Positions 48,099 through 52,282 of a stretch of DNA of 64,000 nucleotides are shown piece by piece; within the stretch, counting starts at the first letter, position 1; every line of letters starts with the position of its first letter. The notes under the pieces were generated by a model that made no database searches, was not told where the DNA came from, and worked only from the letters and a program-made list of their open reading frames with translations. The translations under genes were made by a program, and so were the position numbers. The stretch is from Desulfovibrio sp. UIB00 (GTDB lineage Bacteria > Desulfobacterota > Desulfovibrionia > Desulfovibrionales > Desulfovibrionaceae), in assembly GCF_022508225.1 (NCBI RefSeq), contig NZ_JAETXJ010000002.1, positions 62,001 to 126,000 on the forward strand, written 5' to 3'.

Positions 48099-48175
48099 CG
48101 GAGCGTGGCGCAGCCTGGTAGCGCACCTGCTTTGGGAGCAGGGGGTCGAAGGTTCGAATCCTTTCGCTCCGACCA
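48099..48175 (+). tRNA. tRNA-Pro (anticodon TGG)
   Basis: Acceptor CGGAGCG with CGCTCCG, anticodon stem CCTGC/GCAGG with loop TTTGGGA giving TGG, T-loop GTTCGAATC, and encoded CCA. It is the last host-like gene before the AT-rich island. Confidence 0.96.
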
Positions 48176-49496: not shown

Positions 49497-49667
49497 GTGC
49501 TTAAAACACCTTTAATCAACAGCGGGAAACCACACCCGTCAGCTTGTAGTTTTTTGCATCCACTGAAAAAGGACGCGCTTACGGAGTTCTGTGCCGGCAG
49601 GCTAGGAAAAGATGTCGAACTCTGCGCCGCGCTTCTTGATGACACGCACCTAATAACGGAAGACTAA
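49497..49667 (+). CDS. Possible small ORF or gene remnant (56 codons)
   Basis: A GTG-started frame encodes a peptide ending CAGRLGKDVELCAALLDD plus THLITED and a TAA, and a strong terminator follows nine bases later. The last 35 codons are GC-richer than the surroundings and look protein-like; the first 20 do not. There is no good SD. It may be a small gene with a later start or the 3' remnant of a lost gene. Confidence 0.3.
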   Translation: MLKTPLINSGKPHPSACSFLHPLKKDALTEFCAGRLGKDVELCAALLDDTHLITED

Positions 49668-49675
49668 GTAGTTAA

Positions 49676-49719
49676 ACGCAGCCCCCACAATCTTATGATG
49701 GTGGGGGCTGCGTTCTTTT
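49676..49719 (+). terminator. Strong terminator in the island
   Basis: ACGCAGCCCCCAC (49676-49688) pairs perfectly with GTGGGGGCTGCGT (49701-49713), followed by TCTTTT. Confidence 0.9.
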
Positions 49720-49952
49720 GAGGTGTGGGAAAGTATTTTCTGACTAAATAACTATGTTTTGAGGTAGTTTGTAAAATTGTTTTACGTAAAAATCAATTTC
49801 AGGCGTTAAATTTTACATTTTCTGATTGTATATGACTATAACTCAAAAAATTTTATGTGCTTTTATGATTAGTATCGTATTTATTAATTATGAAAAGATA
49901 AAATAGTAGCAACCTAATAAAGTTCATTTCTAGAAAATTTAACAAAATAATA

Positions 49953-49980
49953 TTGACAAGTGACGTTGCAGATTTATTAG
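49953..49980 (+). promoter_or_regulatory. Candidate promoter for the DUF2188 leader transcript
   Basis: TTGACA (49953-49958) is followed after 16 bases by TATTAG (49975-49980). It is the best plus-strand promoter match upstream of the hairpin chain. Confidence 0.45.
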
Positions 49981-49997
49981 TCAAATTGGCCTGCTTG

Positions 49998-50033
49998 AAA
50001 AAAAGCGCCGCCAGTCTTGCAGGACTGGCGGCG
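49998..50033 (-). terminator. Minus-strand intrinsic terminator
   Basis: CGCCGCCAGTC (50006-50016) pairs perfectly with GACTGGCGGCG (50023-50033). Seven As at 49998-50004 give a T7 run on the minus strand, so it ends a minus-strand transcript although no minus-strand gene lies just upstream. Confidence 0.8.
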
Positions 50034-50100
50034 ACTTCAGGAACAGATCGGCTGTTCCTCTCTTTTGGTCAGAGATGAAGTAAACAGCCGATCTTTCCTT
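49998..50100 (-). ncRNA. Candidate small RNA antisense to the DUF2188 leader
   Basis: A minus-strand transcript ending at the terminator would contain the 12-bp inverted repeat AGATCGGCTGTT/AACAGCCGATCT (50045-50056 with 50083-50094) and the terminator stem, about 100 bases in all. TTGACA on the minus strand near 50104 is a possible -35 box, but its -10 would fall inside the repeat, so the 5' end is uncertain. Confidence 0.4.
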
Positions 50101-50227
50101 GTCAAGCGTATGTTCACGTTTTAGCAAGGAGATCATTCCACATGCTCCTCACCTAACATTGCAATTGTTTTGGTCAAGAACACCCGCAACAATTTAATAT
50201 CCCCTTGATGGGGAGGAGCATCGTATT
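50006..50227 (+). promoter_or_regulatory. Structured leader of the DUF2188 gene with SD/anti-SD pairing
   Basis: The SD region GAGGAGCAT (50213-50221) is exactly complementary to ATGCTCCTC (50142-50150). The same anti-SD can instead pair with AGGAG (50127-50131). That AAGGAG is itself placed to start a four-codon ORF, ATG-CTC-CTC-ACC-TAA (50142-50156). Further stems are GGAACAG/CTGTTCC (50040-50058), AATTGTT/AACAATT (50163-50194) and CCCC/GGGG (50201-50213). This looks like a translational switch. Confidence 0.55.
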
Positions 50228-50461
50228 ATGGCTAGTGATCAGACACATATTGTTCCCAATCCTAATGGTGGTTGGGATTCCAAAGATACCGGAAATTCTC
50301 GCGCCTCGAAACATTTTGACCGCAAGGCGGATGCCCAAGACTGGGGGCGGGATCACAGTCGGAATATCGGCAGTGAATTTGTCATCCATGATAAGAAAGG
50401 GGTTATCCGTCAAAAGGATTCCCACGGCAATGACCCCTGTCCGCCGCGTGATAAAAGATAG
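50228..50461 (+). CDS. DUF2188 domain protein
   Basis: This small hydrophilic protein of 77 residues matches the DUF2188 pattern: HIVPNPNGGWDSKDTGNSRASKHFDRKADAQDWGRD-like start and FVIHDKKGVIRQKDSHGNDP end. Such proteins are common on mobile elements and of unknown function. GGGAGGAG lies ten bases before the ATG and can be masked by the leader. It is convergent with the prophage tail operon, separated by a bidirectional-looking terminator. Confidence 0.8.
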   Translation: MASDQTHIVPNPNGGWDSKDTGNSRASKHFDRKADAQDWGRDHSRNIGSEFVIHDKKGVIRQKDSHGNDPCPPRDKR

Positions 50462-50475
50462 GTTCAGTTAGCAAC

Positions 50476-50506
50476 AAGGCCTCGGATTCCCGGGGCCTTT
50501 TCTTTT
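50476..50506. terminator. Terminator between DUF2188 and the prophage operon
   Basis: AAGGCCTCGG (50476-50485) pairs with CCGGGGCCTT (50490-50499) with one G-T pair, followed by TTCTTTT on the plus strand. It lies ten bases past the end of the minus-strand phage operon. Confidence 0.8.
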
Positions 50507-50516
50507 ATGGTGATTT

Positions 50517-51596
50517 TTATCCCCCTACCGGGGTGCCAGTGGTGCTGCCGCCGGGCTGAACGCCCGTGTGGGTATGCCCGCGCAGGGAGACGGCCCCGGC
50601 GGTAACGTCCTTATCGGGTACGGCCACGCCGCCGTTGCGCACAGTGAAGTCGCCGTAGAGCGTGGAGCTGCCCGGCCCGCCCTCGTAGCCCTCAGTGGTG
50701 AGGATGCCCTGAATTTTGACCACGGGCGCGCGCAGCAGGATTTCTTGCGCGCTTTCGATAGTCACCTTGCCCTTGGCCTTGATGGTTTCCTCACCTTCCA
50801 CTGTCACGGTGTCGGCCCCTTGCACAGTCAGACCACGATTGCCCACAATGTCGATCTGGCGGTTGCCTGTGACCTTGCTTGTGTGATCCTTGCCCACCGT
50901 CTCTTGCGCAGCGCCTGCGGTGGAGTGAGTGGAGTCGCCCCCGGCTGTGAGGTTGAGCGCGCCAAGGCTGCCCACATCTGCGCGCAGGCCTGCCAGCATG
51001 GTCAGCACCGTGCCCACTTCCACAGTATGCGTGCCGTCCACTTCCACGGTGGAATGCTCAGAAACGCGCCGCGTCTCCCGCGCCAGCTCCGTGGTGCTTT
51101 CCATGGCTTCCACGCGGCGCGTAACGCTTTTGTCCGCTATTTCCGCATCTGTCTGGCGGCTCCAGGTGCCACCCGCATCCGCCCTCTGAAAGGTGGTCGG
51201 GCTTTGTTGCAGCAGCATTTCTTCCGGCCCCACCTGCGGCAGCGAATCGCCCATGCCGTACATTTGCCGGATAATGGGGTGATCCTGCCGCCCGTAAGCG
51301 AAGCCAACAACCACAAGCGCCCCGGGCCTTGGCGGCGCAAAAACGCCAGCCTCGCCGCCCGCACCCAGCGGCACGGGAAGGGGCACAGCCGTGTAATGGG
51401 GAAAGGCCGGATCCGGCTCCATGTCTGCGGTGAGAATTTCAATGTCCGCAGCAAAGCGGGGTCGAAAGCGTTCCGAGCTGGCCCCCTGGCTGGGGGCATC
51501 GGCAATGGCCAGCACACGCCCGTACCTGTCTAGGTGCAGCCCGCCAGAAAGCTCTGGAAACAGGCGCAGAATGGCCTTTTTTAAAAAGTCTTGCAT
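50517..51596 (-). CDS. Phage baseplate spike protein (gpV/gp5-like)
   Basis: After an N-terminal helix (MQDFLKKAILRLFPEL), an OB-fold region (RYGRVLAIAD...PRPGALVVVGFAYGRQDHPI) leads to a central hinge and a long C-terminal stretch of beta-helix repeats (VEVDGTHTVEVGTV, VTVEGEETIKAKGKVTIES). It ends with a GHTHTGVQPGGS tip whose HxH motif matches the iron-binding tip of P2-type spikes. The ATG at 51596 was chosen; the frame runs to 51707 through the preceding gene. The protein should trimerise and pierce the outer membrane. It is the last gene of the operon. Confidence 0.85.
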   Translation of the reverse strand: MQDFLKKAILRLFPELSGGLHLDRYGRVLAIADAPSQGASSERFRPRFAADIEILTADMEPDPAFPHYTAVPLPVPLGAGGEAGVFAPPRPGALVVVGFAYGRQDHPIIRQMYGMGDSLPQVGPEEMLLQQSPTTFQRADAGGTWSRQTDAEIADKSVTRRVEAMESTTELARETRRVSEHSTVEVDGTHTVEVGTVLTMLAGLRADVGSLGALNLTAGGDSTHSTAGAAQETVGKDHTSKVTGNRQIDIVGNRGLTVQGADTVTVEGEETIKAKGKVTIESAQEILLRAPVVKIQGILTTEGYEGGPGSSTLYGDFTVRNGGVAVPDKDVTAGAVSLRGHTHTGVQPGGSTTGTPVGG

Positions 51597-52282
51597 TTGA
51601 AACTCATGTTTACGCCAGACAGGGTGACAGTTTCCACGCGTCCGCCGTCTGCGGCGGCATTGACCACGCAGCCCGGGCGAATATCTGGAACGGCAGCCAT
51701 TGTGCATTGCCCGCCCGCAGAAACCTGCTTGAACACGTTTTGCGGGATTTCCACCTCGCGGCCTTTCCAGCGCGAATCCGCCCAGGAGCCGACAAAAATT
51801 TTACCATCTCCCTGAGAGAGCCACACATAATCGTCAATTTGGAACACCTCACCCAGGGTCTGCATGGCATGCATGGCGCTGCCAAAGCCGTAAAAAAACG
51901 GAACTTTTGCGGATGCATAAGGCCGCTCCGGCACAATGAACTCCAGCCCGGTCAGCTCCGCGTAGGTGACCAGCACCTCCCGCAGGGTGGGGTGGCGCAG
52001 GCTCAGGGGGGCGGCATTATCCATGCGCGCCGAAAGTTCGCGGCAAAAAAGGCGTTGCTGCTTGGCATCCACAGTGGTTGAGGTGACAACCTCGCCGCAA
52101 AAAAAACGGGTGAGCGCGCTTTGAAAATGCCAGCCCAGCGAGAACTCCACCCGGCCTTCAAGGCGCTGATCCGCGCGTACCTGAAAAATGGCCGCGCCCG
52201 GGCGGCTTATGTCCAGGCGCACCTCGTCAGACACAAGGGGGTATTCCGCGCCGTTCACCACAAGGCGCTTGAGCAGCTTCAT
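51581..52282 (-). CDS. Phage baseplate hub protein (late control D-like)
   Basis: The 233-residue protein has the pattern of gpD/gp27-type hub proteins: an N-terminal strand pair (RLVVNGAEYPLVSDEVRLDISRPG), FFCGEVVTSTTVDAKQQ, PTLREVLVTYAELTGLEF and a C-terminal strand-rich part ending VNMSFKCKTF. It is shorter than P2 gpD (about 390 residues). It connects the tube to the spike and overlaps both neighbours by 4-16 bases. The assignment rests on pattern and position. Confidence 0.65.
   Translation of the reverse strand: MKLLKRLVVNGAEYPLVSDEVRLDISRPGAAIFQVRADQRLEGRVEFSLGWHFQSALTRFFCGEVVTSTTVDAKQQRLFCRELSARMDNAAPLSLRHPTLREVLVTYAELTGLEFIVPERPYASAKVPFFYGFGSAMHAMQTLGEVFQIDDYVWLSQGDGKIFVGSWADSRWKGREVEIPQNVFKQVSAGGQCTMAAVPDIRPGCVVNAAADGGRVETVTLSGVNMSFKCKTF

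Follow-up and report, generated by a model that had tools for sequence, protein, structure and literature searches.

The closest described systems are the replication-control leaders of plasmids, in which the leader open reading frame (ORF) is coupled to the target gene, overlapping or abutting it, and the loop of stem-loop I forms an activating pseudoknot with a site near the Shine-Dalgarno sequence (SD) of the target. Such leaders occur in I-complex plasmids (repB/repA and repY/repZ, with RNAI) and in the IncFII plasmid R1 (tap/repA, with CopA), and in erm-type translational attenuators a leader ORF frees a sequestered SD. For the I-complex plasmids, translation of the repB leader peptide is described as necessary for repA and as inhibited by RNAI (PMC10286972), which pairs with stem-loop I through a kissing complex (PMC10724649). 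In mgtQ-mgtB of Salmonella, an 8-codon ORF releases a sequestered ribosome-binding site (RBS) (PMC8092293), and type I toxin-antitoxin systems (timP/timR and others) combine a structured mRNA, an upstream ORF in some cases and an antisense RNA (PMC11228461).

Here, we analyzed a 64,000-nucleotide stretch of a Desulfovibrio sp. UIB00 contig (hereafter, the window), in which a gene of the DUF2188 family is preceded by a structured leader carrying an ORF of four codons. The literature searched, which included few subscription papers, contained no account of this leader; titles and abstract openings of literature on antisense RNA, Desulfovibrio and prophages concerned other matters, and a full-text literature search returned no article with DUF2188 in its title or abstract.

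The DUF2188 gene, its mini-ORF and the probable prophage setting

The original prediction held that the SD region of the DUF2188 gene is exactly complementary to the first codons of a mini-ORF lying upstream, and on direct reading of the sequence all its coordinates proved exact. The anti-SD ATGCTCCTC (50142-50150, plus strand) is the exact reverse complement, over nine bases, of GAGGAGCAT (50213-50221, plus strand), which spans the DUF2188 SD and the following CAT; it constitutes the first nine bases of the mini-ORF ATG CTC CTC ACC TAA (Met-Leu-Leu-Thr; 50142-50156, plus strand), whose own SD, AAGGAG (50126-50131, plus strand), lies 10 nt before the ATG at 50142. From 5' to 3' on the plus strand, the order of elements is a first hairpin (H1), two further hairpins (P2 and P3), the mini-ORF with its anti-SD, the DUF2188 SD, the gene (50228-50461) and an intrinsic terminator of its transcript detected by terminator scan (50476-50499, plus strand).

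In 400 kb of the same genome, an exact anti-SD of at least 9 nt was present upstream of 2 of 210 SD-bearing genes, and none of the 210 had an anti-SD of at least 7 nt together with an overlapping, SD-bearing mini-ORF. Among 10,000 dinucleotide shuffles of the leader, a 9-nt anti-SD arose in 50, the combination of a 7-nt anti-SD with a mini-ORF in 5, and that of a 9-nt anti-SD with a mini-ORF in 0. The folding energy of the leader was -100.3 kcal/mol, compared with -64.2 +/- 4.6 in shuffles (z -7.8), and a slightly extended piece gave z -7.3. In view of these gene controls, leader shuffles and folding z, the anti-SD/mini-ORF observation is real and not a product of chance.

The encoded protein (77 aa; PF09954, E 5.6e-19; plus strand) corresponds to phrog_3220, of unknown function, and its sequence is polar by eye, so that the features of a small hydrophobic toxin were not found. 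The family is present in 374 plasmid and 22 phage records. Counting the own genome in each case, relatives were detected at the level of the order in 34 of 347 genomes, at that of the family in 14 of 288 (E <= 1e-18, with the G174 protein as query) and at that of the phylum in 17 of 395 (E <= 1e-15). In the order search, the nearest proteins by identity were those of G174 (74%), which belongs to another genus, and G049 (69%), which belongs to the same genus as the window, followed by G187 and G238 (67% each). Searches for a solved structure of a relative gave two weak matches only, one covering 33 residues at E 0.0037 and the other at E 0.98. Viral contigs yielded 4 and 40 DUF2188 loci, with a best identity of 62%, and by eye the subtype of the window was absent from them.

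Some of these relatives have neighborhoods of their own. In three viral contigs (L103, L104 and L106, positions ~2466-2494), where DUF2188 is of another protein subtype, a perfect 10-nt inverted repeat (CTCCTTATGC..GCATAAGGAG) covers the DUF2188 SD, which suggests another SD-covering device, or an operator. Directly 3' of DUF2188 in G174 lies a gene for a short phrog_1090 protein of unknown function (L131 9118-9393), which gave no Pfam match and which, by eye, we presume to resemble Cas2; a gene of similar size follows DUF2188 in G187 (L133 5324-5587).

The last 31 bases (48145-48175) of a tRNA-Pro gene (48099-48175) recur, in window-scale numbering, at 86757-86787 and 108289-108319, the former beside an integrase gene (85578-86702, window-scale; PF00589, E 7.3e-14). 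These repeats suggest two tandem integrated elements of 38.6 and 21.5 kb, of which the 38.6-kb element, with its tail genes, looks like an integrated prophage. From the positions of repeat and integrase, DUF2188 would lie about 2 kb inside the prophage end away from the integrase, a usual place for accessory genes. The G174 homologue is found near phage tail genes, and that of G049 near an integrase beside a tRNA-Ser gene.

A leader fold shared by three genomes

Leaders homologous to that of the window precede the DUF2188 genes of G174 and G049 (Smith-Waterman z 6.0 and 7.7, respectively, with 0 of 300 shuffles reaching the score in each case), while these two leaders compared with each other gave z 2.8 (6 of 300 shuffles). 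Ten other DUF2188 leaders, including those of G187 (L031) and G238 (L032), reached z <= 2.1 in every comparison; a G038 relative with no in-frame start codon was left out of the leader comparisons. A general riboregulator of DUF2188 genes is thus rejected: besides the ten non-homologous leaders, the window alone passed the exact test for an anti-SD with a mini-ORF over the 85 SD-bearing loci retained from 95 distinct ones (five start-less loci, two of them from G038, having been dropped from the locus set). At the DNA level, the leader was matched in 3 of 149 genomes, comprising its own and two others, where one match spans the start of the gene with part of its coding sequence, the other falling in a terminator-like stretch; phages and plasmids gave no match to the leader DNA. 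Among the 288 genomes of the family, a covariance model of the three leaders hit 12 at E <= 0.1, including its 3 members, and the remaining 9 matches (E 0.011-0.095), fewer than the ~29 expected by chance, were not counted. Over 71 sources, the same model recovered its 3 members, along with 4 further matches whose E was 0.62 or higher.

In the consensus fold of the three-sequence alignment, P2 and P3 are common to all leaders. The long hairpin P2 (50045-50094, plus strand) pairs 50045-50056 with 50083-50094 below the apical loop CTCTCTTTTGGTCAGAGA and shows compensatory changes relative to G174 and G049; P3 (50095-50131, plus strand), which contains the mini-ORF SD, pairs 50095-50101 with 50125-50131 and 50104-50109 with 50116-50121. 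Two mutually exclusive pairings had been claimed for this region, and both are present, namely a hairpin at 50039-50059 (8 bp) and the 12-bp helix of P2. The alifold energy of the alignment was -19.3, against -3.2 +/- 2.0 for column shuffles, which do not preserve neighboring bases (z -7.9, 0/300). At 9 of 27 consensus pairs, at least one sequence differs on both sides and still pairs, and 13 of the 27 were broken or gapped in at least one. With three sequences, the RNAalifold covariation term was slightly unfavorable (+0.45). The G049 leader alone folded with z only -1.6.

No known Rfam element accounts for the leader, which had no match at gathering score (3 tRNAs were matched elsewhere in the window); at E <= 5 it gave three miRNA matches, all sub-threshold. 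The G174 leader gave eight sub-threshold matches, the best of them to rli38, a Listeria sRNA (L131 8597-8736, minus strand; 31.7 bits against a threshold of 49, E 0.011), probably by chance.

The DUF2188 SD is predicted to be closed in all three leaders, its mean unpaired probability being 0.002 in the window, 0.025 in G174 and 0.013 in G049, compared with 0.54 in L031, a leader that is not homologous to them; when the 5' ends were placed at the predicted transcription starts, the values were 0.002, 0.106 and 0.014, respectively. The closed SD state and the conserved fold are well supported. That the SD is sequestered by an anti-SD borne on the mini-ORF holds less uniformly. In G174, ATG TGC TCT CTC TAA (Met-Cys-Ser-Leu), with its own SD GGAGG, aligns with the mini-ORF from start to stop, and pairing occurs in the same register, the mini-ORF AUG of both leaders pairing with the CAU just 3' of the SD. 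G049, on the other hand, has AUA at the start, so that the four-codon ORF is kept in two of the three leaders, and in the computed best duplex between its corresponding segment and the SD the register is shifted. The anti-SD:SD duplexes were computed at -21.8 (window), -15.5 (G174) and -12.2 kcal/mol (G049), and shuffled anti-SDs were equally good in 0.35%, 3.95% and 4.6% of cases, respectively. Neither G174 nor G049 reached an exact, bulge-free complement of at least 7 nt, a bulge or G-U pairs occurring in their helices, and the pairing lacks cognate specificity, the segments of G174 and G049 scoring -15.1 and -12.4 against the window SD. In G174, the P2 loop is a better SD partner (-22.5) than the mini-ORF (-15.5) and is the one used in the minimum free energy fold; in G049, another segment pairs with the SD at -12.8, as well as the anti-SD does.

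The mini-ORF SD is also covered in the window, as had been proposed, but mainly by P3 and not by the AGGAG:CUCCU pairing originally put forward. Its region had a mean unpaired probability of 0.03 in the window, compared with 0.22 in G174 and 0.67 in G049, and such tight closure thus appears to be the window's own. When the mini-ORF was masked as if ribosome-bound, accessibility of the DUF2188 SD rose in the window (0.002 to 0.16-0.36) and in G049 (0.013 to 0.20-0.22), whereas the SD was not freed in G174 (0.025 to 0.02-0.03). By this folding, occupancy of the mini-ORF would free the SD in two leaders and not in the third, and gating of DUF2188 by the mini-ORF is moderately supported. The G049 leader (L030) additionally contains a 53-codon frame (-171 to -10, counted from the ATG of DUF2188), with its ATG inside the first hairpin and its TAG inside the DUF2188 SD, which could provide translational coupling to DUF2188.

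A predicted antisense RNA and competing explanations

That the first hairpin of the leader, H1 (50006-50033), is a minus-strand intrinsic terminator was overlooked in the original prediction. H1 consists of an 11-bp stem and the loop CTGCAA, followed by CTTTTTTT (in full, CGCCGCCAGTC CTGCAA GACTGGCGGCG CTTTTTTT); since the U-tract falls on the minus strand, H1 would end leftward transcription, directed against DUF2188. A counterpart in G174 (L131 8633-8602) has a 13-bp stem of different sequence, a U-tract and the same loop CTGCAA, and a weaker one is present in G049 (L132 9217-9236). An opposite-strand terminator 110-300 nt upstream was thus found in 3/3 leaders, compared with 12/216 genes, the G049 terminator being below the limit of the strict scan and counted from the general terminator scan and a looser test. 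The strict scan, which excluded G174 and G049, detected 21 terminators in 464 kb on both strands, and among these the TGCAA loop occurred in H1 only.

With a minus-strand terminator in all three leaders, an antisense RNA against P2 is therefore predicted, of which H1 is proposed to form the 3' end and the P2 apical loop the target. In the window, this putative RNA would span ~75 nt (49997-50071, minus strand), with an unpaired 5' tail, the complement of the P2 loop, ahead of a single hairpin and H1; the candidates in the three leaders measure 75 (window), 81 (G174) and 69 nt (G049). Just downstream of P2, an aligned minus-strand element reads TTGACA, TTGACA and TTGATA in window, G174 and G049, and the candidate antisense promoter of the window (50079-50105, minus strand) joins TTGACA (50105-50100) through 15 nt to TTTACT, a poor -10. 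This promoter is a lead only, since its scores (9.1 in the window, 7.1 in G174 and 8.1 in G049) are close to what the top-scoring site of a random sequence reaches (median 8.7, 95% point 11.0) and another minus-strand site outside the leader outscores it in the window (9.3) and in G049 (8.9). For the leader mRNA, the best plus-strand candidate promoter (49953-49980; TTGACA, 16 nt, TATTAG; predicted start ~49988) scored 9.4, against a null median of 8.7 for 501 nt; G174 and G049 have low-ranking plus-strand candidates with TTGACT, and the predicted starts lie 18 (window), 23 (G174) and 26 nt (G049) before the first hairpin.

When the region covered by the antisense RNA was masked in the leader up to the mini-ORF, accessibility of the mini-ORF SD fell from 0.36 to 0.01 in the window, where the P2 3' arm lengthened P3; in G174 the drop was slight (0.40 to 0.34), and in G049 accessibility rose instead (0.04 to 0.17). 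With the leader at full length, the corresponding changes were 0.027 to 0.015 in the window, 0.23 to 0.37 in G174 and 0.25 to 0.30 in G049.

Taken together, our leading reading, to which we would grant close to an even chance, is that of a prophage-borne, cis-acting translational switch, with a hidden SD, gating by the mini-ORF, and an antisense RNA against P2 that holds DUF2188 off. By sequence and folding, the DUF2188 SD is kept closed, and in the window the bases that close it are the codons of the four-codon ORF; translation of the mini-ORF, or occupation of its SD, would pull the anti-SD away and allow DUF2188 to be translated. A short antisense RNA, starting inside the P2 loop and ending at H1, would pair with the P2 loop and the P2 5' arm; in the window, the freed P2 3' arm would then lengthen P3 and lock the mini-ORF SD, leaving DUF2188 off. 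The prophage would in this way keep DUF2188 low, with release once the antisense RNA falls behind the mRNA, for example, to speculate, through a changed template number or changed transcription on induction. A more specific version, which we consider less likely than not, is a copy-number-type circuit in which a ~75-nt cis-antisense RNA gates a four-codon ORF that is itself the anti-SD, a single initiation opening the gene.

It is conceivable, though unlikely, that the mini-ORF gates the SD as in the original prediction, with no antisense RNA in existence, and that H1 ends read-through from the convergent tail operon or is a leftover. Between that operon (last gene 50517-51707, minus strand) and 50006, no other minus-strand terminator-like site was present in the 49500-50600 region scanned, the antisense promoter is weak, and the convergent gene of G049 has a weak terminator-like site only (5 pairs), all of which would suit a read-through origin. 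In G174, however, a separate terminator (L131 10243-10209) serves the convergent tail operon, ~1.6 kb off and with three plus-strand genes between, and H1 is still there, so that it should end another minus-strand transcript; moreover, terminators at equivalent positions of three diverged leaders would be unexpected under read-through (the 12/216 genes above).

Doubt may also be cast on the mini-ORF itself. It would be a by-product of the anti-SD sequence and P3 if it were untranslated and the SD-hiding structure were opened by a trans-acting sRNA, a protein (CsrA, for instance), temperature or an RNase, an explanation that we consider quite improbable. The SD of G049 does stay closed with AUA in place of AUG, and the two peptides, Met-Leu-Leu-Thr and Met-Cys-Ser-Leu, differ, yet the window and G174 align in the start and the stop of the ORF and in a good SD (AAGGAG and GGAGG), and 0/10,000 shuffles produced a 9-nt anti-SD with an SD-bearing mini-ORF. 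Control of DUF2188 by transcription only, with incidental leader structures, could draw on the small number of examples, but the folding z of -7.8, the homologous fold with compensatory changes and the closure of all three SDs render it very improbable.

Comparison with known systems

The switch favored here shares with the rep leaders of I-complex and IncFII plasmids the order of antisense target, leader ORF and target gene. A sequestered target SD, as in those leaders, is predicted in all three sequences (unpaired 0.002, 0.025 and 0.013); of an antisense gene facing the leader's 5' portion, the terminator was found in 3/3 and the promoter is close to random, the RNA being predicted. Unlike the rep leaders, the leader ORF of the window has four codons, which are the anti-SD, and stops short of its target, ending at 50156 before the DUF2188 start at 50228, with neither overlap nor abutment; furthermore, the target is a DUF2188 gene in a chromosomal prophage-like element, and not a replication initiator. 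In each of the three leaders, the P2 loop is able to pair with the SD if G-U pairs are allowed, and in G049 alone it can also pair with TTCGCCAG. Neither an activator site nor an activating pseudoknot common to the three leaders was found. Since two defining features are lacking, the window leader may work like the rep leaders without being one of them.

With mgtQ, the window leader shares a very short ORF beside alternative stem-loops, whose translation exposes a hidden RBS (proposed in the window). The mgtQ ORF lies in region 1 and acts by way of a 2:3 stem and acidic codons, whereas the window ORF is the anti-SD and lacks acidic codons; the window leader also differs in its added, predicted antisense RNA. 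The likeness to type I toxin-antitoxin systems extends to a structured mRNA with a closed RBS, an upstream ORF in some and a small antisense RNA (predicted here), and ends at the product, DUF2188 not being a short hydrophobic peptide. To our knowledge, DUF2188 has no known toxicity. Unlike erm-type attenuators, there is no conserved stall peptide, the two mini-peptides being different.

In brief, the leader is real, conserved in a small set of mobile elements and, from these three sequences, a plausible variant of translation control by antisense RNA and leader ORF. If the more specific circuit outlined above is true, no antisense-gated switch with a smaller leader ORF is known to us, and the leader would be the first regulator described for a DUF2188 gene. 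The leader offers a first handle on the timing of expression in this family of unknown function. As a small, well-defined RNA, it would also lend itself to asking how initiation at a minimal ORF opens a neighboring SD. In this context, the logic of antisense RNA and leader ORF that controls plasmid replication would be used by integrated phage elements, with an accessory gene placed under such control and the leader ORF cut to four codons.
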